From positions 1 through 23,587 of IMG/VR virus record IMGVR_UViG_3300046467_000885: DNA of 23,587 bases; one strand, given 5' to 3'. Numbering within the stretch: the stretch's first letter is position 1; every line of letters starts with the position of its first letter. The notes under the pieces are model-generated. The model ran no database searches. It was not told the origin of the DNA and saw only the letters and a program-made list of their open reading frames with translations. The translations under genes and the position numbers were made by a program. Source of the stretch: a virus. This document shows, piece by piece, positions 1,889 to 23,587 of the stretch.

Positions 1889-2287
1889 TTACCTACCAAA
1901 CCTTGATCGGTCTATGCCTACAAGCGCATCTCGAACAATCGACCTTGCGTTGTCTATTAAATCGTCTTCGTCAATAAATATTAAATTTATCCCTAGTGTC
2001 GCTAGATACTGCCTTGTGGAAATATCTGACTGCCTAACCGCTGCGCCTTTTTCGTAATGAAAAAAAACACCCTGTACGTTTATAGCTATATCAGGGGGAT
2101 TATAGATCATAAAGTCTATAACCCTTCCTCCCTTGTCTAGCCTTCCTCCTGCCAACTTGCTTTGATAATCAAAATCAACATTCGGTTTAAGCCCTAGTTT
2201 AAGCAATGCTTTCCAGCATAGATACTCAGGACCACTACCAGCCCACCAGTCCGGTACTGGTACAGCAGGAATTGACTGGTTTGTCAT
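1889..2287 (-). CDS. VSR/DUF559-like PD-(D/E)XK-fold protein with altered active site
   Basis: This is a 132-aa protein whose pattern fits the small VSR/DUF559 branch of the PD-(D/E)XK nucleases. E21 (GSGPEYL) opens the first helix, D58 lies in GRVIDFMIY, the next strand reads INVQGVFFHY (residues 69-78), and it ends with ISTRQYLATLGINLIFIDEDDL, like the usual R-D-x-Y-L-x-x-L-G-Y-x-V-x-R-x-x-x-x-D-L helix and strand. In an active enzyme the D58 partner motif would be E-x-K. Here the aligned residues are N70-V71-Q72, so catalysis may be lost or altered. Its ATG overlaps the TAA of the upstream tail gene (TAATG), so translation is coupled, and it sits between two tail genes. It could be a free-standing homing-type nuclease, a DNA-handling virion protein, or a fold reused structurally. 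The fold call is moderate and the function is unknown. Confidence 0.55.
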   Translation of the reverse strand: MTNQSIPAVPVPDWWAGSGPEYLCWKALLKLGLKPNVDFDYQSKLAGGRLDKGGRVIDFMIYNPPDIAINVQGVFFHYEKGAAVRQSDISTRQYLATLGINLIFIDEDDLIDNARSIVRDALVGIDRSRFGR

Positions 2288-6942: not shown

Positions 6943-7818
6943 TTAGCTAGTTGCGTCAGCAGACGGATTCGGCTTGTCGTAGAGCAAAGCTGCTCCCTTA
7001 GTGTCATCAACTTCAAAGACTGCATAGTCTTCAGTAACAACAACCTCGTATGCACGAAGCGATGCATCCCGCTCACGCTCTTCTGAACGACCACTTGCGG
7101 ACAAGTGACCCATAGCTGTCCTGTCGGCAATAACACCGTAACCGGAGTCATTAGAGTTATTGGTGATGTTTCCATCTTCAAAGATTGGAACACCAGAAAT
7201 CTTAATGCCTGACCAGAAATCCTTGACTGCTGGCTTGTTGAAAGCATCTGGCAGAGGGTATGTAGCAAGCGTGTTGCCCACATCAGTTGCTAGTTTCCAA
7301 ACAGCGTTAGGGTGGTGAACGATAAAAAGATCGTTACCAAACTTATCTGCTTTGGCGTTAGCAATTACACCAGATACGTTAGCAAGGTTAAACAGAGCAT
7401 TGTCTGCACCAATTGCTGTCCCGCCGTTAAGCGATGGAAACAGAGCAATGATGTCTGTGTCCTTCTTACGAGCCATTGCATCACCCATCTGGCGACCAAT
7501 GATCTTGTAAACGTCTTCGTTGTTCTGTCGAAGAAGGGTGTCAGTAACGATTACCTTGAGTCCAACTTCAGCAGTAGTTGCTGTAATAGTTGAAACATCA
7601 ATGTCTTCGCTATCAATCATGTCCTGACCTTCGGCAAGGTCTTCCGCAGTCATCGTAGCGACCTTAGGGATTTCGAGTTTGTACTCACCCTTGCCAAGGT
7701 TGAACTTTTCAATAAGCCCAACCATCGGAGCGTTATGCTCCTCTGTGTACCGTGCTTGTGCAAGCATGATACGAGACATATTCTGGAGATTTCCAGAAGT
7801 AGTCGTTTGTATTGCCAT
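6943..7818 (-). CDS. Major capsid protein, HK97 fold
   Basis: This 291-aa protein starts at ATG 7818 with GAGGT upstream. The N-terminal helix region (NMSRIMLAQARYTEEHNAPM) leads into a strand (EYKLEIPKVATMTAEDLAEG), then the long spine helix (VTDTLLRQNNEDVYKIIGRQ and onward). The A-domain has FIVHHPNAVWKLATDV, and the closing strands include SGIKISGVPIFEDG and RAYEVVVTEDYAVFEVDD. This order is characteristic of HK97-type capsid proteins. The length is typical. The gene follows the scaffold gene by 11 bases, which is the expected arrangement. No N-terminal cleaved delta domain is apparent, consistent with a separate scaffold protein. Confidence 0.85.
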   Translation of the reverse strand: MAIQTTTSGNLQNMSRIMLAQARYTEEHNAPMVGLIEKFNLGKGEYKLEIPKVATMTAEDLAEGQDMIDSEDIDVSTITATTAEVGLKVIVTDTLLRQNNEDVYKIIGRQMGDAMARKKDTDIIALFPSLNGGTAIGADNALFNLANVSGVIANAKADKFGNDLFIVHHPNAVWKLATDVGNTLATYPLPDAFNKPAVKDFWSGIKISGVPIFEDGNITNNSNDSGYGVIADRTAMGHLSASGRSEERERDASLRAYEVVVTEDYAVFEVDDTKGAALLYDKPNPSADATS

Positions 7819-8724: not shown

Positions 8725-11700
8725 TTAACGTGTGGCAATTGCCTCTGTAAGCTGTATTTGTTCAGCAGGGGCAGGGACTTGAAGGTCTCTGCCTTTGCTA
8801 AGTCGCGCTCTTGCTTCGTTAGAATCAACAACTCGCTGAGCTACTGCGTACAGCCCATCTGCTTTTTTAAGAACTGCTGGAACACGCTCTCCCCTTGCTT
8901 GGTACTCTTTTCGCAACTTTGCTTTTTCCATTTCCATTGCAGCCGAAACTTTTGCCAGTGAGAAAAGGGAGTCAGGAACCATAAAGTTAGACTTGTTGGC
9001 AATAATATAATCTCGCTTATCAGGAGATAATGCCGCAAGGTAACTGTCTAGCTTATCGCCTATTTCCTCACCGCTTAAACCCATTTCATTTTCTGGGGCA
9101 TAGAGCCTGTCCAGATACTCATAGTATTCGTTCTGGGCTTGTTTTAAAGGTTGACCTTCAGGAACGTCAAACTCGTTGCTGTCATCAAAGGCGTGGCGGC
9201 GAACTCCGGCAAGTTCAGCGTCGTACCTGTTCATTAAGGAGTAAATGCTCTTTGCTTTATCCCCTTTACTTTGCCCACCAGCCATGATGGTTTCAATCTT
9301 TTGGTACTGCTCTAACTCAATGTCGTAAACATCTTGAGTGTATTTACTTGGCTGGAACTCTGACCCTTCGTAATACATTCGATTAATGTATTTCTGTTCG
9401 TAGCCATACAACTCTTTGTAATCTACTCCAGCCAACTCTTGTGAAAGATCATTTTTATCAGCGTAGATACTTACGTTAAGACCAGCCGCTGCACCAATTC
9501 CAAGTAAGGTTTTAGCAAATCCACCGTCTAACTGCTCAGAAGCTTCCATGATTTGTTGAATCATTAAAGGGTAGAAGTCTTCAATATCAGTACTTTGCCC
9601 CGGAATAAATTGCTCTCTGCCAGTAACTTCTTCTCCAAAGAAATTCTCATTAGATATACCCCCTACAATACTGCTACCAAGAGGGCTAAGCTTTGCCTTT
9701 GTAAAGTTTCCAATCTGGCGCATAACGTCAGCGTCAAACTCGTCACCCATAGACGTAATTTCTTTTCGGTCTCCAGAAACTCCGTAAGCTGCGCGAGCCA
9801 TAAATCGCCAAACAGAACCCAGTCCCAAGGTTAGGTCTATGTTTACTCTGCCTTTACTAGCTTTTAAGAAGTTCGACTTGCGCCAGTCTGTTTCAATTTC
9901 AAACCCGTTAAGCACAAGAAGAGTTGTAATGCCTCCAAGCACCCCAAAGGTTCTGGCTAGGTCAGCTCCCATTTGCTTGCTAGTGTGAGCACCACGATGT
10001 CCAGCATTAACTACATACCCGTAATCGGTTTTAACAACTGAACTCTTAGGCAAGTCCCACTTCTTTGCGTGAGCGTTTGCCTTTCTTAAAGCCGCCCCTG
10101 CTTTTTCAGTCTCTTTAAACTTCACAGCCTTAAACTGCATTGCTTCCTTCCCAAAGGTTTGCATAACCGTAAATGGTACTTGGAACCTAGAAGTCATCCA
10201 CCTTGGAGCAAGCAAGACAGTAGAAAGTGCAGGGGCTACATTGTCAGGCAAGCTTCCTCTACCCGTAGCTTTGTTTAAGAAATTACCATAGCTTGCTAAG
10301 TAATCATGTATTGCGGCTTCAGGAACGTTCGAGTTCTGAAGAGTTTTGTAGTAGTCATTTAACAACTCGTACCTCATCTTATTGAGGTATAAGTTGTGGA
10401 ATCTTTCACCAGCCTTGAACGGGTAGGCAACAACTCCAAGAGGGCGTTTAAGAACGCTTCCTGTCTTTTGCATAAACGCATTGTTCTTAACTACGTCAGG
10501 GAAAACATTTCCTACCGAGTTAAACAAGTTCCCAAGAAACGCTTCTTCTCTTTGAGCAAGTGGACCGTTTAAGTCAGATATAAACACATGCTTGTTGATA
10601 AAAGAGTAGTTGACATCGTTGGTTATTGTCTTCATTTGAACGTCATAGTTCTTAGCTGTAAACATACCAACTGAAGACTTGGCTATGTTTTGATACCACT
10701 GAGTATCAGGACCTGAAGCCCACGCTTTAACGTCACCTTTAGCTAAAAGGCTTAAAGACCTTCTTGTTGTAACAGGTTTAATTGCTCCTCCAATAAGCAT
10801 CCCGCCTTGGTTAAAAATTGCTCCGTAGTCAATCGAGAGCAGTAGCGCACGGGGAGCGTTGAAGGCTTGAATAATAAGCTGACGCAGGATTTGCCACTTA
10901 GTCCTAGGCGGCACATCTCTGCCTTTTGCACTCAGCCCTAAAGCTTCCCAGACAAGAGTAACTTCACTTGGGGTCAGCACTTCTGCAACATCAAGTTGGG
11001 TAGTCCCTGACATTCCTGCTACAAAACGCTGAGGCTCTGTTCCGGTTTTTAATTTAGTTGATGCGGGAGAGCCTACAAAAGGAGTTTCTACTCCCATTAG
11101 TTTTTGTATGGCTTTCCTGTAAGTAGTCCGGTCAAAGGTTCTTAAAATAGTCTTTAACTTAGCGTTCTTTATATTTGGAAGTCTTCTTTCTCCGTAGTTA
11201 ATAAGAGCAACAACTTCCATTGGGTGAAGTCTTAAAGGCTTGTACCCTGATTTACTCTTGTCGGCTTGGCTTTTCATTGCCCCGCCTACTGCTTGATCTT
11301 CTGCTTCGTAGCCACGAACAGGGTCAGAGCTAGCTTGCCTTGCTTCCCTAGCAGTTTCTGACCGTGCAACAGTTTTCGTTCTTGCTGCTGAAATTTCAGC
11401 GTCAGTAGTTTCTCTCCAAACTTTAAACTCTTCGCTGTTTATTCTTTTTTCTATCTCAGGAATAAGGTTTGTTGCAATGTAGTCTTCACCTTCTTCTGTC
11501 ATATTGCCATCAATACGACCGAAGCGACCCGTTGTATCTCCAAGAACCTCTTCTAGGATTCTGGCGTTTATAGGCTCAGCAACTCCATCCCCAAAGTACT
11601 TAGGGAAGTTAACTTTAGGAGGGCTAAGGTTCGGGACAGGGTTGTTCGGCTGGCGCGGAATAACGTTTCCTTCTACAGCTTTTCTTAGCAGGTCTAAACG

Positions 11701-14700
11701 TTCTTCAACAGCACGGGCAGGAGACTCAACAGCACGGGTGGTGGCAATTATCTTTTGGTCAATTGCCCTCTGAATTACGTCAGTATTTAAATCTATGAGC
11801 TGCTGGTTTCCTTCAACAAGCCCTCTTCCATGCTTGGTGTTTGCCAACTCTAGCTCAGCGTTATCCGTTAGGTTGTCTAGGTTGCCGCCTTGAGGATTCT
11901 TTTTACGGTGAAAGATTTTTTCAGGTTCTGTTGCTTTTGCGTCAGTTGCTACAAAGAGAACCTTGCTCTTAATAGTGCTGTCGCTACCAACAAGCACTAT
12001 AACCCTGTGAGGTGCTCCCCCTTGGTTAGCTCCACCTATTTCTGTAAGTGCTCCAACACCTGTTTTGGTATAAAGCCTATTAAGTAAGTTGTTAGCTTTC
12101 TTCTCTGAATACTGAGTCCTACCCCCTCTTGTAGGCTTAGAAATTCCAACTCCAATATTAGCGTTGTTGTTTATAGCCCTAGTGCCTTTGTCGTTAAACA
12201 AGGCAAGGTTCTCAGGTTTAAAAGTATTTTGAATGTCTTTAACAAATTCTCTGTTCCTTGACCTGTGGACAAGGTAAGAAACAAGATCAGTCTTTGACGC
12301 AACTTCATCTAACTCTCCAATAACAGGAATGTTATTTAAAGAAGAGCTTTTTACAACTTGCCACCAGCTTGCAGTAGTAGCTTTTATCATTGAGTTAGCT
12401 AACTCATGAACATTTGTAGTTAGCTGCATACTTGCATAAGTAAAGTTACTTTGCTCTGCGTTAGCCAGAATATCATCAAAGATACTAGCGTTAATATCTT
12501 GAAGGTCTATAGCTGCTAGCTGGTCAAAAGCTTTGTCTTGGGCAATAAGCTTGTCAGCAGCTTTTTGTTGAGCTTCCGTAGCAGTCCCTGCGTTTTTTGC
12601 TTCTAGTAAAACGCTTTCTGCTTTGTTTGCTAAAGTTCTAATTGCCGCTCTTGCAATAATAAACTCTTCAGGGTTTACGCCAAGCTGTTCTGCAATATCC
12701 TCTTTGGTAAAACCAGCGGGGAGCACTTCGTTCCAAGCATCGCCTAATCTTTGCTCAGGCAAAGGAACAGCAAATTCTTCCCAGTCAATTGACCCTTTAT
12801 TAACTTCTTCTCTTGTAAAGATATCGAGTTGCTCGGCAAAGTCATCGTACAACTCGCTAAAGGCACTAGTTCCGAAAGTTTTTTCTATGTCAACTGGAGA
12901 AAAGTCTACTTTTCTACCAGCTAGCTCTTGAATAGAAGGGCTTTTCCATCCATTTCTAGCAACACTAGTTAAGTCCACCATAACAGCGCGCTGGTTTAAC
13001 TCAATTTTGCTGGTCTTGGAAGTAACTAACTGCGTGTTATTAAGCAGTCCTTCATCAATAAACCTTGCCCCTAGCCTGTCTGCTGTACCTATCAACTCCA
13101 TAGATATAACTTCGTCTGGACCGATAAGGGGAATGTACGCTTGAACCCTTCCTCCAGCTTGGTCAGCGTAACTCCACGCAGCTATGTCAAAGTCCGTACC
13201 GTACTTCCCGTTACCAAGAAGGTTGTACATTCCTTGGCTTTCAGCAAATCTAAAATCAGCTTTGTAATCTACCTTAACGCCAGTCATAAAAATTATCGGC
13301 TCACCGTTTTCATTTGTGAACGCTAGGTTTTCAAGCCGTTTTTTTACAATTGGATTTAAGTTGCTTTCCCTCCAGTTACCTATAGAACTTATAGGGTTGC
13401 CATCCGGGTCAACAATGCTTAACTTTTGCCTAGTCTGACGCGAAATATCAAACAACGCAAGATTTTTAGTTTCCGGGGATGTGGCTCGCAGAATAATTGC
13501 TCGACGCATTGCTTTTTTACTGTCAATTATTGCGTCTATATCTGGGGCTGTCATGCCTTTCTTTAGTAGTGGAAGGATAGGGGCGTAGAAAGGGTCGTTT
13601 ACTACATCTAACCCAAAAGCACTTAATTCTGAATTAGATTTTATAAGCAGTTCTGTGTCTGTTAGTACTCCAAGGCGACCCATATCCCATGTCAAAGAAT
13701 TTACTGAAGCTGCAATAGCATTATGTTTTGAATTTAAGAAGAACGTAGCTAGCATCCTAGCTTCAAAATCATCAGACGTAGTAGCCCTAGCAAGTATTAT
13801 TGCGACATCGTTAGCTTCTGCTTCGGTAAGAAGTCTCCTTTTTTCAATAGCAGCTTCCTTAACAGCTTTTATTGAGCCGGAGGAAGGAGTGCCTTGCTTT
13901 GCAATATCTTCAAGAATCTGAGCAAATTTACGGAGAGTTGTTTGTTCGGCTAGCGTTTGCTGCCTAGCAACTCCAAGTGGTTGACTCCCCCGGAACAGGT
14001 GCTCATCTATGAAAGTATGCCAAGAGTCAGTTAGTGACTCAGTTGCAGGTCCCCAAACTTTGTCAAGCTCGTATGTCCCTGTATTGCCTTGAGTAATAGA
14101 TGAGGCAGGTCTGTTGCCTCTTGCAACTTCCATTAAGTATCGTGAAAATAACTCTGACCCTGACTCATGCAACAACGAAGTAAGGTCAAGGTCTCTAATT
14201 TGGTTTTCGTCTACCCAAGTTAGTGGCTTGCCTGATTCTCTGGCTGTTCCTACTGGGTCTAGGTTTACTAGCCTTTCAACATCATCGGCGGTTAGCCCTT
14301 TAATAGCTTGCAATTGCTCAGCAGTTAACGCTTCGCCAGTAAGTTGCTGCCTTAAAAGTACTTGTTCTTTTAGGCTATCAGATAAGCCTTGGAACCGAAC
14401 ATTTCCATCGGTTGTTCCATATTTTGCGTAAGTAAAAACATCTTGCAGGATAACGTGACTTAACTCATGTTGAATAGATATGAAAGCGTCAGCTTCGTTA
14501 ATCACAAGATCAGGGTTTGTCTTAGCGTATTCAATAATACTGGCAACCCTACGGAACGTAGAACTCATTACTCCGGCATTAGTTCCTGCAATGCCACCAC
14601 CTGTTAATGTACGTGCTACAGAGTCCTTGCCAATATACGTACTGCGAACTGTAGGAAGTAGGGACTTTATGTATTCATCTTTTGTAACACCGAAAAGCTT

Positions 14701-16179
14701 AGCCACGCCTTCAATAATAGGCTCAGAGACTTTAGCGGCTTGAGCAATTTGACTATCACTCATTCCTAGAATTTTTCCAGAAGCTTGGTAATAATCGTCA
14801 AAGCTGTTTATCGTAAAGTGAACAGTACTTGCTCCTGCGTTTTTTTCCCCTCTAAAAGCAGCAACAATTTTTAACGGTTTATTTGGCTCTTCAACAACTC
14901 TAATATCTGAAGCAGGGCGGCTTAAAGAACCAACTGTTTGAGCAGCGTATTCAATAGGGTCTATCCCGTTTGATGTTATCTCGCTATTGCCTAACTCGGC
15001 TGATACAGGTGCTTTTCCTGCATCAGTTGCAGCCGCAGCTATCTGACCGCTTGTTCTAAGTCCGGGCTGCCCGTACTTTGTAGTTACCCAGTTCTTAGCC
15101 CCACGCAAAGCTTTGTACGGAAGCATTATGTCATCTGCCATCCACCTTGCGCTTCTAGCAACAGAACCTATACCCAAGCCAAAGCCAACGACTTCTCCCG
15201 TAAAAGCTGCTCCGGTTTCAATCTTTGAACCAGTTTCAGGGCTTATAATTCCCGCCCTTTCAAAGGGTTCTGTAGCGGCTCTTGCGGCTCCACCAAAGAC
15301 AGCTTGAGCTGCAACAACCGGAGCGAAATCTTCCCCTAGAGGGTTTGCCGATTTTCCTGCAAACCTTCTAGCTCTAGCACCTGCGGTTTCTTCTAAGAGA
15401 GCTTCTTTTTGGTAGCCAAGTATTTTAGTTTCATTGCCCCCAACCTTAATCGGGTTAAGCATCTTCATAACTTGTTCACGCGCCCGTGTTGTCTTTTCTT
15501 CCCAGTCAGTAACAGCTTCGCCATTAACTATCCTTGGAGCTACAACAATGGGGCGTTGGTTATTCTTTTCAAGAAGCTGGTTATAAAACTGAAACTCTGA
15601 CTCTGATTTACTTATATTTTCTGAAAGAGGTTTGCTGTCGTTGTAAGCTTGAATTTTTTGGTTGTGAGCTGACTTTTCTCTAATAATGAACTGAGAAGGG
15701 TCTTCTTCATCAGGGTTAAAATCAGAACCGCTTAAGCCTTTAAAGCCAGCCCCTTGGAATACGTCAGTCTGTTTAACGCGCTTAACATACGCATCTCTAG
15801 CTTCTTTTTCTAACTGACTACCTATTTGCTGGCTTTGCTCTACTACAGTTGGTATACCCCCGCCAGCAGCGTTCGACCGTGTTCCAGTAGGACGCAGTTC
15901 ATTCAACTCAGCTATTTGTTCTTGAAGCTTCTCGTACTCTCTAGATTCATGGAACGGCTCAAAGTTCTTATTTGGCTGTAGTACATCTTTTGAAATTCTT
16001 GCTTTGTACCAAGGCTGTGACCCCGAAATCCCCATTTCCGCATTACTGTAACCAGCAGGAGGAGGAGTGTAGCCACGCTGTATGCCATCTGCCGCTCGCC
16101 TTCTAGTAGGTAGCTGCGGACCGAACGGCTTTGGAGCCGTTTGCCTGTTAGACAAGAACTGCCGAAAAGATTGAGTCAT
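8725..16179 (-). CDS. Giant polyvalent-type virion/injected protein with HExxH metallopeptidase domain
   Basis: This 2484-aa protein takes up a third of the window. Its ATG overlaps the upstream stop (TAATG). Residues 1-260 are charged and helical. A Gly/Ala-rich hydrophobic stretch at ~305-345 includes TGEVVGFGLGIGSVA. Residues 571-575 are HELSH in SIQHELSHVILQ, a zincin active site. HESGSELFSRY at 671-681 offers E672 or E676 as third zinc ligand. Residues ~950-1035 (NGEPIIFMTGVKVDYKADF to IPLIGPDEVISMEL) weakly resemble ADP-ribosyltransferase folds without the usual His. Residues ~1700-2230, including GRVNIDLTLGLGSVWRF, resemble C-terminal domains shared by 'polyvalent proteins' that phages inject with their DNA. 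A hydrophobic segment, GGITTLLVLNGFEI, lies near 2080. Position between portal and scaffold fits an internal, ejected protein. I saw no RNA polymerase or transglycosylase motif. Peptidase: moderate. Transferase: weak. Confidence 0.7.
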   Translation of the reverse strand: MTQSFRQFLSNRQTAPKPFGPQLPTRRRAADGIQRGYTPPPAGYSNAEMGISGSQPWYKARISKDVLQPNKNFEPFHESREYEKLQEQIAELNELRPTGTRSNAAGGGIPTVVEQSQQIGSQLEKEARDAYVKRVKQTDVFQGAGFKGLSGSDFNPDEEDPSQFIIREKSAHNQKIQAYNDSKPLSENISKSESEFQFYNQLLEKNNQRPIVVAPRIVNGEAVTDWEEKTTRAREQVMKMLNPIKVGGNETKILGYQKEALLEETAGARARRFAGKSANPLGEDFAPVVAAQAVFGGAARAATEPFERAGIISPETGSKIETGAAFTGEVVGFGLGIGSVARSARWMADDIMLPYKALRGAKNWVTTKYGQPGLRTSGQIAAAATDAGKAPVSAELGNSEITSNGIDPIEYAAQTVGSLSRPASDIRVVEEPNKPLKIVAAFRGEKNAGASTVHFTINSFDDYYQASGKILGMSDSQIAQAAKVSEPIIEGVAKLFGVTKDEYIKSLLPTVRSTYIGKDSVARTLTGGGIAGTNAGVMSSTFRRVASIIEYAKTNPDLVINEADAFISIQHELSHVILQDVFTYAKYGTTDGNVRFQGLSDSLKEQVLLRQQLTGEALTAEQLQAIKGLTADDVERLVNLDPVGTARESGKPLTWVDENQIRDLDLTSLLHESGSELFSRYLMEVARGNRPASSITQGNTGTYELDKVWGPATESLTDSWHTFIDEHLFRGSQPLGVARQQTLAEQTTLRKFAQILEDIAKQGTPSSGSIKAVKEAAIEKRRLLTEAEANDVAIILARATTSDDFEARMLATFFLNSKHNAIAASVNSLTWDMGRLGVLTDTELLIKSNSELSAFGLDVVNDPFYAPILPLLKKGMTAPDIDAIIDSKKAMRRAIILRATSPETKNLALFDISRQTRQKLSIVDPDGNPISSIGNWRESNLNPIVKKRLENLAFTNENGEPIIFMTGVKVDYKADFRFAESQGMYNLLGNGKYGTDFDIAAWSYADQAGGRVQAYIPLIGPDEVISMELIGTADRLGARFIDEGLLNNTQLVTSKTSKIELNQRAVMVDLTSVARNGWKSPSIQELAGRKVDFSPVDIEKTFGTSAFSELYDDFAEQLDIFTREEVNKGSIDWEEFAVPLPEQRLGDAWNEVLPAGFTKEDIAEQLGVNPEEFIIARAAIRTLANKAESVLLEAKNAGTATEAQQKAADKLIAQDKAFDQLAAIDLQDINASIFDDILANAEQSNFTYASMQLTTNVHELANSMIKATTASWWQVVKSSSLNNIPVIGELDEVASKTDLVSYLVHRSRNREFVKDIQNTFKPENLALFNDKGTRAINNNANIGVGISKPTRGGRTQYSEKKANNLLNRLYTKTGVGALTEIGGANQGGAPHRVIVLVGSDSTIKSKVLFVATDAKATEPEKIFHRKKNPQGGNLDNLTDNAELELANTKHGRGLVEGNQQLIDLNTDVIQRAIDQKIIATTRAVESPARAVEERLDLLRKAVEGNVIPRQPNNPVPNLSPPKVNFPKYFGDGVAEPINARILEEVLGDTTGRFGRIDGNMTEEGEDYIATNLIPEIEKRINSEEFKVWRETTDAEISAARTKTVARSETAREARQASSDPVRGYEAEDQAVGGAMKSQADKSKSGYKPLRLHPMEVVALINYGERRLPNIKNAKLKTILRTFDRTTYRKAIQKLMGVETPFVGSPASTKLKTGTEPQRFVAGMSGTTQLDVAEVLTPSEVTLVWEALGLSAKGRDVPPRTKWQILRQLIIQAFNAPRALLLSIDYGAIFNQGGMLIGGAIKPVTTRRSLSLLAKGDVKAWASGPDTQWYQNIAKSSVGMFTAKNYDVQMKTITNDVNYSFINKHVFISDLNGPLAQREEAFLGNLFNSVGNVFPDVVKNNAFMQKTGSVLKRPLGVVAYPFKAGERFHNLYLNKMRYELLNDYYKTLQNSNVPEAAIHDYLASYGNFLNKATGRGSLPDNVAPALSTVLLAPRWMTSRFQVPFTVMQTFGKEAMQFKAVKFKETEKAGAALRKANAHAKKWDLPKSSVVKTDYGYVVNAGHRGAHTSKQMGADLARTFGVLGGITTLLVLNGFEIETDWRKSNFLKASKGRVNIDLTLGLGSVWRFMARAAYGVSGDRKEITSMGDEFDADVMRQIGNFTKAKLSPLGSSIVGGISNENFFGEEVTGREQFIPGQSTDIEDFYPLMIQQIMEASEQLDGGFAKTLLGIGAAAGLNVSIYADKNDLSQELAGVDYKELYGYEQKYINRMYYEGSEFQPSKYTQDVYDIELEQYQKIETIMAGGQSKGDKAKSIYSLMNRYDAELAGVRRHAFDDSNEFDVPEGQPLKQAQNEYYEYLDRLYAPENEMGLSGEEIGDKLDSYLAALSPDKRDYIIANKSNFMVPDSLFSLAKVSAAMEMEKAKLRKEYQARGERVPAVLKKADGLYAVAQRVVDSNEARARLSKGRDLQVPAPAEQIQLTEAIATR

Positions 16180-19620: not shown

Positions 19621-20997
19621 TTACCACCTATTCACAGAAATCAAGTTGGTCTGTCCTGAGGTTCTAGCAAAGCCAAAATTCACAACAAGACCGTAGGTTA
19701 TAGCTTTTACCCCGTGATTGAAAGCATCTCTTGGTGTTTTACCTACCACGTTGCCCTCCCTGTCAGTCCTCCAAGTATAAACATGAATCTGGTCATCGAA
19801 AGGGTTAGCGCACCCGCCTAGCTCAGAGATAATGCCTTTACAGTTGTTATTAAAAACAATACTCGGCTGGCGCGAAACAGGGTTTTCTTTTAAATAAGTA
19901 TTGAATCTTTCGATACCATCCATGATTCCGACTCTTTCGGACACCATGTATAGCCCTGCTTGGGCAAGCCATGTATCAACAGGTCTGGATTCACCAAAGT
20001 TATGGGCTGCTACGTCGATAACGCCGTGGGAAACATCCTGCCACCAAGGTTTAGTTTGGCAAATATCAATAATTTCTTCCGTGATCTTAAGGCGTTCGTA
20101 AACTTCGTCTATCACACGGACTTGCCCGTCAATTATTTGTACTGCCTCTACAGCGTAGGCTGACTTTGTAACCTGTGAGTAGCCGGGGTCAATCCAAAGA
20201 TGTACTGGTTCGTTCGGAACATAGACAACTTCATCAGAAACGTGCCTAGCAACGTCAAATGTGTCGTGAACAAGCCCTTTAGGTGGCGCAGGTTTACCTG
20301 CAATTCGCTCGTTAAACCAGTTTTCGGAGTGCAACCGCTCTAGTGACAGGATTTCAGGGTCTTCCCTGCCTTCAGGATAGACAACACGGTTAGTCCATGA
20401 GGGTAATGAGAAGGAAATAGCGTCATCTTGCTTGTGGTAGAACTTCCAAATCTCCCATTGGGACGGATACCAACCCAACGACATTTCAAACGTGCCTTCT
20501 AGGAACAAATACCCACGTTTCTCTGCGATACGACCACGAAGTCTTAGAAAACTGTCGTAGTCAATCTGCGATGCTTCGCAAGTAACGACCATTCGGGGGG
20601 CTTCCATAGCCAAACTTCGATAGTCGTTAGCAGACTTTGTTTTTATTTTAAATAAACCGGGGTTGCTTGCTGTTCCGCATATTATTTCCATCTCACCGGG
20701 GTCGATACGCTTAGTTTGCTTAAACAAAAACCCAAGTCTGCCAAGAATATCCGATAAATAATTCCACTCTGCTCGGTTGCGCTCATAGTCAGCAGCCACA
20801 AGCCACACGATGTCTCCGTCAACAAACTCATCAAGTCTGCTGATGATGGAAATAGCCCCCATAAAGCTTTTACCCGCACGTTCTCCACCCGCAACAAGCT
20901 TAATCCGGGCTGGATGATCGAGTATTTCGTCTTGCTCTTCCCAAGTATCAACACCAACTGTCGATAAAAGAGCTTTCCTGTCTTTCGATAAAAGCAT
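19621..20997 (-). CDS. terL: Terminase large subunit (packaging ATPase-nuclease)
   Basis: This protein pumps phage DNA through the portal and cuts it. Counting from ATG 20997 (458 aa), the Walker A is GGERAGKS at 37-44, with the arginine-bearing P-loop usual in terminases. Walker B plus catalytic Glu is MVVTCE at 136-141. WLVAADYERNRAEW at 65-78 matches the conserved post-P-loop segment. The RNase H-like nuclease carries Asp in LWIDPGYS (~267) and VIDVAAHN (~327). The frame is also open to TTG 21030, but that start has no ribosome site, while ATG 20997 has AGGAGG four bases upstream, so I chose 20997. It heads the late operon. No small terminase subunit gene is seen beside it. Its leader can hide the ribosome site. 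Confidence 0.9.
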   Translation of the reverse strand: MLLSKDRKALLSTVGVDTWEEQDEILDHPARIKLVAGGERAGKSFMGAISIISRLDEFVDGDIVWLVAADYERNRAEWNYLSDILGRLGFLFKQTKRIDPGEMEIICGTASNPGLFKIKTKSANDYRSLAMEAPRMVVTCEASQIDYDSFLRLRGRIAEKRGYLFLEGTFEMSLGWYPSQWEIWKFYHKQDDAISFSLPSWTNRVVYPEGREDPEILSLERLHSENWFNERIAGKPAPPKGLVHDTFDVARHVSDEVVYVPNEPVHLWIDPGYSQVTKSAYAVEAVQIIDGQVRVIDEVYERLKITEEIIDICQTKPWWQDVSHGVIDVAAHNFGESRPVDTWLAQAGLYMVSERVGIMDGIERFNTYLKENPVSRQPSIVFNNNCKGIISELGGCANPFDDQIHVYTWRTDREGNVVGKTPRDAFNHGVKAITYGLVVNFGFARTSGQTNLISVNRW

Positions 20998-21000
20998 TTT

Positions 21001-21077
21001 GCCTCCTGCAAATACTAAACCCCGATGCAAGGAGGCTCAAGCACCGGGGTCTAGGTGCCAATTAAAGCCTTGCATCG
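21001..21077 (-). promoter_or_regulatory. Terminase mRNA leader with competing hairpins
   Basis: On the minus-strand RNA three segments overlap in pairing. A is CGATGCAAGG (21077-21068). B is GCCTCCTTGCATCG (21036-21023). C is TGCAGGAGGC (21010-21001) and holds the terminase Shine-Dalgarno. A:B gives ten perfect pairs and encloses a small GCACC/GGTGC hairpin (21058-21054 with 21045-21041). B:C gives 6+4 pairs with one bulge and buries the Shine-Dalgarno. A:B and B:C cannot coexist, so this has the logic of a translational switch. A further ACCCCG/CGGGGT pairing (21050-21045 with 21024-21019) is also possible. The pairing is seen in the sequence. The switching is inferred. Confidence 0.45.
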
Positions 21078-21190
21078 CACCCTGCTTTGGCTGATTGTAA
21101 CCCTAACGAGGTAGTTTAGTGAGAAACACCCCGGATGCGTACAACCTTGACCACCTCAAAGTAACATAGTTTTAACAGGTGTTATAGACC

Positions 21191-21242
21191 GAAAGGAAGG
21201 AAGGGAAGGGGGGACTATAGGGGGGTAGGGTTGGTAGGTTAA
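21191..21242 (+). other. G-rich, C-poor stretch
   Basis: There is a single C in 52 bases, with runs of three to six G (around 21203-21213 and 21220-21230). It includes ACTATAGGG (21214-21222), which resembles the end of T7-type phage promoters, but the upstream half does not match. G-quadruplex formation on the + strand is possible. Confidence 0.5.
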
Positions 21243-21271
21243 CTAACAACTCTCTTAAAAGAGTTGTTAGT
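21242..21271. repeat. 12-bp perfect inverted repeat
   Basis: ACTAACAACTCT (21242-21253) and AGAGTTGTTAGT (21260-21271) pair perfectly around a six-base loop. No T-run follows on either strand, so it is a poor intrinsic terminator. It sits between the G-rich and G-free stretches and could be an operator or a structural element. Confidence 0.6.
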
Positions 21272-21360
21272 GAAACAACATAGTAGTTATATACAAGGAG
21301 CGATCAGGAAAAAACTTGAGCTAGGGACTCCAAGGCGGAAAATAAACCGTCAGAGGGGTG

Positions 21361-21500
21361 TCACTCACACTACACACTACTACTTCTACACCCTACCCCC
21401 TCCTTCTACTACACCCTACACCCTACACCTACCTCCCCTCCCTCCCCTCCTACAACCCTCCTCCCCCCACTCACCACTCACCCCCCACTCAATCCCCTCA
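21361..21500 (+). other. 140-base tract without any G
   Basis: Every base from 21361 to 21500 on the + strand is A, C or T. C dominates, in runs up to six, and CTACACC-type units recur near 21409-21430. The complementary strand is a long C-free, G-rich tract with many GGG to GGGGGG runs able to form G-quadruplexes. A + strand RNA from here would be almost unstructured, while a minus-strand RNA would be G-rich. Confidence 0.85.
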
Positions 21501-21533
21501 GCAAATTCTCTTCCGGCTTCACCTCTCTCACTC

Positions 21534-21626
21534 CTCCCAACAAGTTGGGAGACCTTGTTTCCTCCCCAGTTACCTTGTAACTGTTATAACAATCTTACGA
21601 TTGTTAAAGGATAACCCCTTGGGTTA
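21534..21626. repeat. Chain of four perfect hairpins in the leader
   Basis: Four inverted repeats lie almost end to end. CTCCCAAC/GTTGGGAG is at 21534-21551 (8 bp, loop 2). CAGTTAC/GTAACTG is at 21567-21583 (7 bp, loop 3). TAACAATC/GATTGTTA is at 21587-21606 (8 bp, loop 4). TAACCC/GGGTTA is at 21612-21626 (6 bp, loop 3). They share no common sequence. Confidence 0.65.
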
Positions 21627-21806
21627 ACTAGGGGGTAGCTTTGCTAAATTTTCCAAGAATCCGGTGGCAGTACGAAGGGTCCGTAGAACTCCTTGAATCC
21701 AGTTTGGAGCAGTCTCTTCCTAGGCATTATGCGCGGGAAAGAGGGGCAGATTTTGCACATTTTAGTTGGATTTGGGGTCTGCTATCATCATGCGCCCACC
21801 CGCTTT

Positions 21807-21830
21807 GGGTCAACTCGTTGACCCTTCTTT
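21807..21830 (+). terminator. Terminator-like hairpin
   Basis: GGGTCAAC (21807-21814) pairs with GTTGACCC (21817-21824), followed by TTCTTT. The 8-bp stem and T-rich tail on the + strand fit an intrinsic terminator, but the loop is only two bases and the T-run is broken by C. It lies upstream of the + strand genes, so it could act as an attenuator. Confidence 0.4.
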
Positions 21831-21889
21831 ACTAACTAGTTAGTAACAGTTACCCCCTTTGGGGGGTAAATGCTCCCCTAAAAGGGGAG
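21829..21889. repeat. 18-bp palindrome and two hairpins before the first early ORF
   Basis: TTACTAACT/AGTTAGTAA (21829-21846) is a perfect 18-bp palindrome and a candidate operator for a dimeric repressor. TTACCCCC/GGGGGTAA (21850-21869, loop 4) follows. Then CTCCCC/GGGGAG (21873-21889, loop 5) comes next, and its right arm is the Shine-Dalgarno of ATG 21892, so the ribosome site can be masked. Confidence 0.5.
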
Positions 21890-21891
21890 TA

Positions 21892-22035
21892 ATGTCCTCT
21901 TTCATAAACCCTGAACGGAGTGAAGGGTTTATTCAAGAGAACATTCCCTCAACCAAAACCGAACTGGAGTTCAGATTTGACTACGAAGCAATTATCGAAG
22001 ATAGAAGCTACGGCACTTTACCGCCCTTTCAATAG
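21892..22035 (+). CDS. Possible 47-aa early protein overlapping the next gene
   Basis: ATG 21892 follows GGGGAG by two bases and opens a 47-codon frame beginning MSSFINPERSEGFIQENIPS and ending YGTLPPFQ. It overlaps the next gene (TTG 21977) in another frame by 59 bases. It is acidic and soluble-looking with no known domain. It carries an internal hairpin, ATAAACCCT/AGGGTTTAT (21904-21932). It may be a leader peptide whose translation opens the next ribosome site, a real small protein, or the first part of a product joined by a +1 shift to the longer frame. The masked, closely spaced ribosome site makes this uncertain. Confidence 0.4.
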   Translation: MSSFINPERSEGFIQENIPSTKTELEFRFDYEAIIEDRSYGTLPPFQ

Positions 22036-22447
22036 AAAGGCTTTCGACGCTGCTTTCCAAAGCAGTAAAACTGGTCGAACCGACCGAGCCAAAGTCCTGA
22101 AAGCATTGCTTTCAGCAGCAACAAAATTCGGAGTCGAAGGGGACTTCGTTGCAATCTCAACGAGATTTGCCAAGAAAGGCTTTGCCTTCAACAACGACCT
22201 AAAGGTCGTCAGGACTAGAGTTAACGAAGTTATTGACTCCAACACCGATGAATCGGTGAAGCAAGTCCGACAGTCAGTAAAACTGACTAGTGGCGAAGTT
22301 GACCTTGGAAAGGTCACTGAGGAAGTCACTAGTGACTTCGTTACCAAAGAAGACCTTGGTCTTCTTGGAGCCAAAGTTGACAAGCTTGCTGAAGCAATGG
22401 CACTAATTGCTGCTGCAATTGGTCCAGAGGCTTTCAACAAGTCGTAA
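21977..22447 (+). CDS. Early protein of unknown function encoded by hairpin-rich DNA
   Basis: This is a 156-aa protein if read from TTG 21977, which has GGAG seven bases upstream. The frame is open back to GTG 21920, but that codon directly abuts GGAG and has no proper spacer, so 21977 is preferred. Residues ~20-80 are basic and mixed (DRAKVLKALLSAATKFGVEG, RFAKKGFAFNNDLKVVRTRV). The C-terminal ~35 residues form an amphipathic helix suitable for oligomers (DLGLLGAKVDKLAEAMALIA). No family is recognised. The coding DNA is exceptional: nearly every 24 bases there is a perfect short inverted repeat (see the repeat entry). A 190-aa open frame on the other strand (22590-22018) mirrors it and is not called. 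Confidence 0.6.
   Translation: MTTKQLSKIEATALYRPFNRKAFDAAFQSSKTGRTDRAKVLKALLSAATKFGVEGDFVAISTRFAKKGFAFNNDLKVVRTRVNEVIDSNTDESVKQVRQSVKLTSGEVDLGKVTEEVTSDFVTKEDLGLLGAKVDKLAEAMALIAAAIGPEAFNKS
22025..22420 (+). repeat. Train of about 14 short hairpins inside a coding sequence
   Basis: Starts of the successive inverted repeats, with stem and loop in bases: 22025 (6, 4), 22050 (7, 2), 22073 (5, 3), 22097 (8, 3), 22135 (5, 4), 22151 (8 with one bulge, 3), 22176 (5, 3), 22194 (7, 2), 22218 (4+4 with a bulge), 22243 (7, 2), 22272 (7, 3), 22300 (7, 3), 22322 (perfect 18-bp palindrome), 22344 (11 with one bulge, 2), 22405 (6, 4). Steps between starts are mostly 16-38 bases, typically about 24. Examples are CTGAAAGC/GCTTTCAG and CACCGAT/ATCGGTG. 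Stem sequences differ, so this is not a sequence repeat. No similar density was noticed in the late genes. Confidence 0.8.
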
Positions 22448-22454
22448 GACTTTC

Positions 22455-22484
22455 CAACTAGTTGCCCTTCGGGGTAGCTAGTTG
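22455..22484 (+). other. UUCG-capped 13-bp hairpin after the early gene
   Basis: CAACTAGTTGCCC (22455-22467) pairs with GGGTAGCTAGTTG (22472-22484), including two G-U pairs, and is capped by TTCG, the extra-stable tetraloop. It begins 7 bases after the stop of the upstream gene. No T-run follows, so an RNA-stabilising or processing end is likelier than a terminator. Its last four bases are also the first four of the three-way junction downstream. Confidence 0.65.
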
Positions 22485-22539
22485 CTAGTTCTTGGATATT
22501 GGTAGTCCAAGCTGAACGAGTTACCTCGAAACTAGCAAC
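22481..22539 (+). ncRNA. Hammerhead-like three-way RNA junction (type III layout, variant core)
   Basis: Stem III is GTTGCTAGT (22481-22489) with ACTAGCAAC (22531-22539), nine pairs. Next is the unpaired T22490, the position just 5' of the cut in a hammerhead (triplet GUU). Stem I is CTTGGA (22491-22496) with TCCAAG (22506-22511). CTGAACGA (22512-22519) follows directly where CUGANGA belongs, with one extra base. G22520 and C22527 would be the single stem II pair, and GAAA (22528-22531) leads into stem III as required. Loop I GGTAG (22501-22505) can pair with loop II TTACC (22521-22525), the kind of loop contact seen in natural hammerheads. Against it, CGAG/CTCG (22517-22520 with 22525-22528) makes a competing 4-bp hairpin that hides core bases. 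The junction is firm on paper, but ribozyme activity is a hypothesis. Confidence 0.45.
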
Positions 22540-22577
22540 AAGTTCATGAAAAGCCCGAATACTAGGAGTAAACCCCT

Positions 22578-22718
22578 TTGTCACCAGCATCTTTCAACCT
22601 AACCTCTTGCCCTAGCTGCAAAGGTGAAGTAATTGTACTTCACAAAGGACGAAGAGCCGGAAAATTGCTATGCAATTCTTGCCGATGGATTGGAACACTA
22701 GCTCAAGCAATTAGCTAG
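22578..22718 (+). CDS. 46-aa zinc-ribbon protein
   Basis: TTG 22578 has AGGAG (22564-22568) nine bases upstream and opens a 46-codon frame. The protein reads SFNLTSCPSCKGEVIVLHKG near its start and GKLLCNSCRWIGTLAQAIS at its end. C-P-S-C and C-N-S-C are 17 residues apart, a classic Cys4 zinc ribbon, with basic residues between. Such mini-proteins in phage early regions often bind nucleic acid or host transcription proteins. That role is inferred. The gene carries perfect hairpins GTGAAGTA/TACTTCAC (22624-22643) and AATTGC/GCAATT (22663-22677), and CTAGCT/AGCTAG ends exactly at its stop codon. Confidence 0.65.
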   Translation: MSPASFNLTSCPSCKGEVIVLHKGRRAGKLLCNSCRWIGTLAQAIS

Positions 22719-22782
22719 AGCTAGTTGACCTGAGCAAGTCAGTAAACTGCTTCGGTTTCTAAACTAGTTACAGGAGTAACAA

Positions 22783-23013
22783 TTGTCTCGAAGTTATAAC
22801 ACTAGTGATGTGTTCAGAGTTGAACCATTAACCAAGGTAGACCGACAGCTTGCTGTCAAAGCAGAAAGACGGTCAATCAAAGTACAGCTAGCTACTGGTA
22901 TCGAAGACCCATTCTGGTTCAAAGCAACTGGTCACAGTGATACTAGGTGGTCTTGGAAAGAAGTTGGAGCGTTGTTCGGAGTGGACAACGGAGTTAAAGG
23001 GTTAAGGAAGTAA
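22783..23013 (+). CDS. Small basic early protein, unknown function
   Basis: This 76-aa protein starts at TTG 22783, with AGGAG six bases upstream. The ribosome site lies in the loop of TTAC/GTAA (22768-22779). The sequence is basic in the first half (KVDRQLAVKAERRSIKVQLA) with several Trp in the second (DPFWFKATGHSDTRWSWKEV) and a helical end (GALFGVDNGVKGLRK). No known motif is recognised. Two hairpins fall in its 5' part: AACAC/GTGTT (22798-22814, spanning codons 6-11) and GACAGC/GCTGTC (22844-22857). It sits in a row of small + strand genes, two bases before the next start. Confidence 0.65.
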   Translation: MSRSYNTSDVFRVEPLTKVDRQLAVKAERRSIKVQLATGIEDPFWFKATGHSDTRWSWKEVGALFGVDNGVKGLRK

Positions 23014-23015
23014 CG

Positions 23016-23399
23016 TTGGAAATTTACATAATAACCAAGAACGTTTATGGCAGCGATTTGTTCTACGTCAAGGGCAAGGTTGCTGCAAAGGTAATAAGTC
23101 AGTTAACTGGTCGCAAGACTGTAACTCGGCTAGACATTGACAACCTAGGCATTTTAGGTCTTAAGGTCAGAGTCAGCGAAGAGGCTCAAGAAGCACTAGG
23201 CTGGACTGCTGAAGAAGCTGGGGCTAAGGCAGTAGACAAAGCCGACATGGAAGCTTGGATGGCTTGGAGAGTAAAAAGACCTTTGACGCTAGGAGTCGAA
23301 GAGGCTCAAGAAATTGCCAAGGAGGTTAAGAAAGCTAGAAAGGGTAAACAGCGTCCTCACTACGGCAATGTTTACAGTCGAAACCAACGACGTAGTTAG
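23016..23399 (+). CDS. Early protein of unknown function
   Basis: This 127-aa protein starts at TTG 23016, two bases after the previous stop, with AAGGA seven bases upstream. Residues 1-55 look beta-rich (MEIYIITKNVYGSDLFYVKG, DIDNLGILGLKVRVS). Residues ~57-105 are helical and acidic, with a repeated phrase EEAQE (SEEAQEALGW, VEEAQEIAKE). The last 25 residues are strongly basic (VKKARKGKQRPHYGNVYSRN), suggesting nucleic acid contact. No family is recognised. Hairpin density is clearly lower than in the first early gene. Confidence 0.65.
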   Translation: MEIYIITKNVYGSDLFYVKGKVAAKVISQLTGRKTVTRLDIDNLGILGLKVRVSEEAQEALGWTAEEAGAKAVDKADMEAWMAWRVKRPLTLGVEEAQEIAKEVKKARKGKQRPHYGNVYSRNQRRS

Positions 23400-23400
23400 A

Positions 23401-23432
23401 TATTATACCATATCAATAGATATGGTGTAATA
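23401..23432. repeat. 14-bp inverted repeat between early genes
   Basis: TATTATACCATATC (23401-23414) pairs with GATATGGTGTAATA (23419-23432), with one G-T pair and loop AATA. It begins two bases after the stop of the 127-aa gene. AT-rich flanks but no clean T-run make it either a terminator-like end or an operator. It also contains -10-like TATTAT and TATACC sequences. Confidence 0.55.
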
Positions 23433-23494
23433 ATATAGTGGCAAATTCAGCAACCGACCCGACGGTTTTCGGGACAGTACTAAGGAGTTCAGCA

Positions 23495-23587
23495 ATGGAC
23501 ATCATCATCGGAAAAATCACTAAGGCTTCAGCAGTTGGGACTCACTTAGAGCCAGCTTACGAAGGGACTTTAACTGGTCGCCAAGTT
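23495..23587 (+). CDS. Start of a further early gene (runs off right edge)
   Basis: ATG 23495 has AAGGAG (23482-23487) seven bases upstream and opens 31 codons to the window end (MDIIIGKITKASAVGTHLEP, then AYEGTLTGRQV). This is too little to assign a function. Unlike its neighbours it uses ATG. A small hairpin, CCCGA/TCGGG (23458-23473), lies in the short gap before it. Confidence 0.6.
   Translation, partial: MDIIIGKITKASAVGTHLEPAYEGTLTGRQV

Follow-up and report, generated by a model that had tools for sequence, protein, structure and literature searches.

The DNA analysed here, called the window, is the whole 23,587-base stretch of an uncultured virus record, IMGVR_UViG_3300046467_000885. 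Its late genes (terminase, capsid and others) lie on the minus strand, and the plus strand carries the earliest genes (Table 1). The first early gene is a genuine gene: a GGAG Shine-Dalgarno sequence stands ahead of its TTG start at 21977, and its homologues share 44-51% amino-acid identity with it. It encodes a protein of the VTGG family (here KLTSGEVDLGKVT) with a helical N-terminal part and a C-terminal helix. The family carries the motif VTGGxVDPAxxP, often DKNGNxLxG, and a C-terminal coiled coil. Searches of PHROGs, Pfam and INPHARED found nothing similar to the open reading frame, nor did a single-sequence search of IMG/VR, and all 15 family members used gave only two stray weak PHROG matches, both of unknown function. 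VTGG is a new protein family. Since the AlphaFold model of the protein was weak (pLDDT 67) and Foldseek returned no significant match, its fold gives no function. No relative was found among INPHARED phages, and the large terminase subunit (terL) had none in GTDB genomes. Among the farther early genes, one encodes a Prim-Pol/PriCT-1/AAA_25 replication protein and another a MoxR-type ATPase. On the late side, a giant virion-type protein of 2484 aa (8725-16179, minus strand; 2818-3323 aa in relatives) carries a HELSH zincin-like motif and had no match in sequence searches of Pfam, PDB or INPHARED.

Table 1. Genes and hairpins around the early start of the window (loops in square brackets; L numbers are loci of relatives)
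Feature	Position	Strand	Size	Remarks
terL, first late gene	19621..21030	-		divergent from train; anchor for finding relatives
Eight perfect hairpins	21534..21889		6-9 bp	non-coding, 5' of gene; starts 21534, 21567, 21587, 21612, 21807, 21829, 21850, 21873; ~12/kb, half the gene's density
First early gene	21977..22447	+	156 aa	TTG start; in-frame GTG at 21920 possible; bears hairpin train
CCTTTC[AATA]GAAAGG	22025..22040		6 bp	
CTGCTTT[CC]AAAGCAG	22050..22065		7 bp	
GGTCG[AAC]CGACC	22073..22085		5 bp	also in L004 and L026
CTGAAAGCA[T]TGCTTTCAG	22097..22115		9 bp	
CGAAG[GGGA]CTTCG	22135..22148		5 bp	
AATCTC[AAC]GAGATT	22153..22167		6 bp	
AAGGC[TTT]GCCTT	22176..22188		5 bp	
ACGACCT[AA]AGGTCGT	22194..22209		7 bp	
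CACCGAT[GA]ATCGGTG	22243..22258		7 bp	same sequence in L026
AGTCAGT[AAA]ACTGACT	22272..22288		7 bp	paired change in L026: AGTCTGT[AAA]ACAGACT
TGACCTT[GGA]AAGGTCA	22300..22316		7 bp	
GAAGTCACT/AGTGACTTC	22322..22339		9 bp	palindrome
AAGAAGACC[TT]GGTCTTCTT	22347..22366		9 bp	
TTGCT[GA]AGCAA	22386..22397		5 bp	
AATTGC[TGCT]GCAATT	22405..22420		6 bp	
AAGTC[GTAA]GACTT	22439..22452			loop holds stop codon TAA (22445-22447); 9-bp version in L013/L046

The first-pass annotation of this DNA had described about 14 hairpins in the gene, about ten of them with six or more pairs, at a step of about 24 bases. Our counts agree: 16 perfect stems of at least 5 bp with loops of up to 4 lie within 22025-22452, and 11 non-overlapping perfect stems of at least 6 bp (8 of at least 7 bp), with loops of 0-4, lie within 22025-22420, typically at steps of 24-30 nt. 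Stems of up to 11 bp had also been reported; the longest detected was 9 bp. The annotation had proposed a comparison with protein-preserving shuffles, and we exchanged synonymous codons of the gene in 5000 runs, keeping protein and codon usage fixed. These shuffles lacked the stems, so the claim of a train stands: they gave 2.7 ± 1.4 stems of at least 6 bp (maximum 8) and a mean of 0.96 of at least 7 bp (maximum 5), and none of the 5000 reached the observed 11 or 8. Random codon order gave a mean of 1.2 stems, against 2.7 with codon usage kept, indicating that the amino-acid sequence itself is bent toward hairpins. Folding energy, another proposed comparison, gave the same picture, with z values for the gene of -6.2 as RNA, -6.8 as plus-strand DNA and -7.7 as minus-strand DNA, whereas the next two genes had -2.1 as RNA. 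Hairpin density was 20.8/kb in the gene and 0-7/kb in the other genes of the window except 1889-2287; most of the window has 0-3 hairpins per 500 nt, the exceptions being this same gene and the non-coding stretch 5' of the train gene (8 per 500). The data confirmed that the hairpin train in 21977-22447 is real. As separate observations, the gene at 1889-2287 (minus strand), a small VSR/REase-like gene with a weak PF18741 match below cut-off, holds 5 hairpins (12.5/kb), which 1 of 200 synonymous shuffles attained, and the capsid gene at 6943-7818 holds 6, attained by none of 200.

Relatives were reached by a terL search, which gave about 100 IMG/VR loci, each then read away from terL (L numbers denote loci and G numbers relative genome records; G001 is L103 and G009 is L026). 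Many of these loci had a hairpin-dense gene at the matching place beside terL. At least five terL lineages carried trains, all in uncultured phages mostly sampled from marine sites, with 8-24 hairpins per gene and a shuffle excess of z 5-17. Homologues in L004, L012, L013, L015, L016, L017 and L026 had 8-13 hairpins in 390-460 nt. Among more distant members, L054 and L055 had 14 and 13 in about 0.5 kb, L089 had 14, L094 had 7 in 339 nt and L092 had 22 in 0.75 kb, while L103 had 61 in 2.5 kb, 24 of them within one 783-nt gene. Ten relatives were surveyed along most of their sequence (9-42 kb), and the strong train was found once per genome, adjoining terL, with the rest at background; G007, G011 and G012 had no strong train, and L103 was hairpin-dense across much of its 9 kb. 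Second, weaker dense stretches (7 per 500 nt) were seen in G004 at ~31500-33000 and in G001 at ~500-1000. Trains persisted across 35% terL divergence, that is, between terminases sharing only 65% identity, with stem sequences wholly changed. The cumulative G-C skew had its minimum at the train in G003, G004, G005, G007 and G008, as a replication origin might give, but transcription diverges there too.

The first-pass annotation had described the feature in one gene, and we considered it as a property of the VTGG gene itself, a view that was dropped. In L103 the train spans about 2.9 kb, covering early genes and an opposite-strand terS-like ORF (10 hairpins, z 9). Other small ORFs bear it in L092 and L094, where the VTGG gene lies farther downstream and is nearly plain (z 2.6-2.8, against 5.2-5.9 in the first genes, where the shuffle of L092 ORF1 was composition-preserving only). 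Thus, what defines the train is its place, at the first early gene or genes, rather than any single gene.

Three side observations concern the same neighbourhood. A long perfect hairpin at 21242-21271 of the window (ACTAACAAC..GTTGTTAGT) has a matching place 5' of terL in distant lineages, its counterparts in L055 and L008 standing about 200-270 nt before terL; it is possibly a regulatory site or a terminator. The tetranucleotide CTAG is strongly enriched across the early region in the lineage to which the window belongs (window 22481-23587 and the early regions of L004, L106, L044, L047, L008, L046 and L015), at about 10-25/kb against 5.2/kb in the late genes of the window, and this excess is absent from the other train-bearing lineages. 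The terL match of L026 (G009:C1:12495-13901) contains one in-frame TAA and is otherwise 94% identical to the terL of the window.

The geometry of the trains was regular. Stems were mostly 6-9 bp and Watson-Crick perfect, with hardly any one-mismatch stems; over all trains the centres were spaced at a median of 31 nt (quartiles 27-38), with linkers of median 13 nt. Density was 7-10/kb over the 300 nt that precede the first early start codon, climbed to 23-28/kb over the 300 nt that follow it, and fell to about 2.5/kb within roughly 2 kb. Non-coding flanks were sparser than train genes (about 3-17/kb against 21-31/kb), with 3-12/kb on the upstream side, and the first 17-60 nt of most train genes were hairpin-free. 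Stop codons often sat in loops (C[GTAA]G, C[TAAA]G), as in L092, L089, L094, L054, L046 and the window; at least six of these cases are roughly independent, giving a rough p of 5e-5 with a chance rate of our own estimate. Some start codons were also seen in hairpin loops (L055, L092).

Comparison of homologues revealed that structure, and not stem sequence, is conserved, as the first-pass annotation had proposed; stems were kept, compensated or replaced, and the covariation which it had suggested looking for was present. In the set L008, L044, L047, L130 and L131, almost all stem differences were either compensated on both arms, as in TCTGAACC..GGTTCAGA versus TCTAAACC..GGTTTAGA and GACTTG..CAAGTC versus AACTTG..CAAGTT, or shortened the stem beside the loop. 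No G-T pair, and no G-T intermediate, occurred in the hairpins kept among these five loci. Between L047 and L008, synonymous third positions differed at 1 of 55 sites in stems and 17 of 72 outside (p about 5e-4), and first and second positions at 1 of 107 and 20 of 175, respectively (p about 7e-4); in close relatives, stem sites were about ten-fold less diverged than the sites interleaved with them. The depletion was not significant for L044 against L047 or L008, because the last two hairpins of L044 have been replaced wholesale by two different ones. L054 and L055 kept the loops (GAA, TAC, TAAA) and the places of hairpins with both stem arms rewritten, and a 21-nt insertion in L015 is itself a hairpin. 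With both compensatory changes and low stem divergence found, the nucleic-acid structure appears to be under selection, and the double role of one sequence, as protein message and as structure, is supported by the homologue and shuffle comparisons. As sole proof of selection, low stem divergence is weakened, since arm-to-arm correction together with selection on the protein could mimic it.

The trains go together with the VTGG gene. The family was encoded in all 18 train-bearing loci, and no train was seen in the 22 loci where VTGG went undetected; in six VTGG loci the train was weak or absent. Some of the loci compared are short fragments. On the terL tree, trains fall in five separated lineages and the train label needs 3-4 changes, a pattern consistent with an old feature that was lost together with VTGG.

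Whether the hairpins work as DNA or as RNA was judged from mismatches and loops. G-T pairs in stems (17/1394) were no commoner than A-C mismatches (33/1464), and one-mismatch stems comprised 3 with G-T and 2 with A-C; the wobble tests gave no sign of RNA, G-U being tolerated no more than A-C in the sense strand. The claim that the loops share no motif stood for the window's own lineage (A), where loops are mostly tetraloop-sized and triloops read R-N-A in 7 of 24 cases with C-G closing in 6 of 24, but not for the other lineages (B). There, 83 of 95 triloops read R-N-A on either strand, against 16 of 87 in control DNA (p 4e-22), and 72 of 95 were closed by C-G, against 15 of 87, although these counts are not fully independent because L054 and L055 are related. 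The motif was nearly strand-symmetric: R-N-A and Y-N-Y stood at 52:31 sense to antisense, with background pentamers C-RNA-G and C-TNY-G at about 199:151 (p=0.39), and triloop purines showed a small coding-strand bias (56:27, p=0.08). The stable RNA loops UUCG and GNRA were not enriched, and an Rfam cmscan of 21000-23587 gave a single match (E=1; 16.6 bits against a gathering score of 39.5). In phage N4, such a loop with a C-G closing pair is required for hairpins to extrude at physiological supercoiling (PMC4496689). Taken together, the lack of a G-T excess, the near strand symmetry of the R-N-A/C-G triloops and the requirement in N4 point to DNA, and it is more likely that the hairpins act at the DNA level than as RNA.

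The first-pass annotation had listed four candidate meanings without preferring any. We favour, with a probability of about 0.4, the reading that the train is a hairpin array which selection maintains at the DNA level where the early operon begins. It builds on the excess over shuffles, the single place per genome, the gradient from the early start codon, the compensatory changes and the low stem divergence. Inverted repeats of 6-10 bp, all perfect and with loops of 3-4 nt, would lie every ~30 bp over the first early gene or genes as a conserved structural element. Its working form would be DNA, as mini-hairpins or cruciforms extruding where DNA is negatively supercoiled or is opened in the wake of RNA polymerases that fire from the divergent early/late region; single-stranded DNA at a replication start is the alternative. 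The array may absorb supercoils, gate early transcription, or serve replication start with the phage Prim-Pol/helicase, and the co-occurring VTGG protein would be its likely partner. The passage of the L103 train through an opposite-strand gene, and the shared presence and loss of train and VTGG on the terL tree, count for this array; the missing R-N-A/C-G preference in lineage A, the coding-strand lean of triloop purines, the bias of trains to coding DNA, the hairpin-free gene starts and the stop codons in loops count against it.

Two other readings are tentative. One may imagine a new kind of genetic element, a sequence-independent DNA 'hairpin code' imposed on coding genes where the early operon begins, kept perfect by selection and read by VTGG as a dedicated structure-recognising protein; we regard this as rather doubtful. 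A live rival, on similarly uncertain ground, is that the train works as structured mRNA: it may armour the transcript against a nuclease, prevent R-loops, pace translation or attract an RNA-binding protein as bait. A role of the transcript would directly explain the bias to coding DNA, the hairpin-free gene starts and the stop codons in loops of at least six lineages or genes, and the train indeed lies mainly within transcribed coding DNA, beginning past the start codon, with a more negative RNA folding z than the next genes and the purine tilt already described. The lack of any greater tolerance for G-U than for A-C, the missing G-U intermediates in close relatives, the near strand symmetry of the lineage B loop motif, the unenriched UUCG and GNRA loops and the Rfam best match below gathering score argue against it.

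Mutation by itself, giving no structural function, is a live but less likely rival as the source of the train. Quasi-palindrome template switching, seeded by stable mini-hairpins in heavily transcribed or single-stranded DNA, would copy arm to arm, with selection on the protein as a filter. Such a process fits the perfection of the stems, the DNA-stable, strand-symmetric loops, the turnover of hairpin positions and the smooth fall-off away from the early start; stem divergence, too, might be lowered by arm correction combined with selection on the protein, and in yeast quasi-palindrome mutations are linked to high transcription (PMC3820800). However, flanks free of protein constraint should then be densest, yet they are sparser than the train genes; the remaining genes, capsid among them, hardly exceed background or do not exceed it, though presumably highly transcribed; trains survive the terL divergence given above; and a site-specific mutator would be required that was lost exactly with the VTGG gene. 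Chance or a codon-usage artefact of a single gene, which has only the general commonness of short hairpins in its favour, is refuted by the synonymous shuffles and by the recurrence of trains in at least five lineages that differ in codon use and have 38-53% G+C.

Nothing comparable came up in the libraries and literature searched, which gave no train of hairpins inside a phage gene, and the phenomenon appears to be new. A gene that has to encode a protein and also form a row of perfect hairpins is under a strong double constraint, which no described phage system explains. The train is short, can be recoded and goes with a single new protein family, so its role lends itself to direct tests, and it may uncover a so far undescribed early role of DNA structure during infection. 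In genome-scale ordered RNA structure and structured coding mRNAs, pairing shapes synonymous choice, and G-U and long-range pairing are tolerated; the trains differ in having only local, perfect, G-U-free hairpins. They share features with the early (virion RNA polymerase) promoters of phage N4, which have 5-7 bp stems, 3-nt loops with G..A, C-G closing and a place in the early region, and whose hairpins extrude from supercoiled DNA (PMC4496689); in loop type and closing pair, lineage B agrees with N4 and lineage A, that of the window, does not. An N4-like virion polymerase was considered and rejected, as the giant 2484-aa protein matched neither N4 vRNAP nor RNA polymerase in Pfam and PDB sequence searches. 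N4, however, has three promoters with conserved stem bases, whereas a train comprises 10-60 hairpins that lie in coding DNA and whose stems are unrelated. The target hairpin/cruciform of diversity-generating retroelements (DGR) is also alike in its 7-10 bp stem of free sequence, its GRNA loop, its action at the DNA level and the function of compensatory stem mutants (PMC3240598), but it is a single hairpin beside a variable region, and here there is a train and no retroelement was noticed among the annotated early genes. In hairworm (Nematomorpha) mitochondria, perfect inverted repeats are similarly kept within protein genes (PMC6649704); those reach 284 bp in many genes, while trains consist of regularly spaced 6-10 bp units in one place. 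REP/BIME elements are likewise arrays of small DNA palindromes (PMC3733652). The train region of the window, however, holds no hairpin-sized direct-repeat family, and where REPs are extragenic copies of one sequence, the stems of the train are all different and mostly intragenic.
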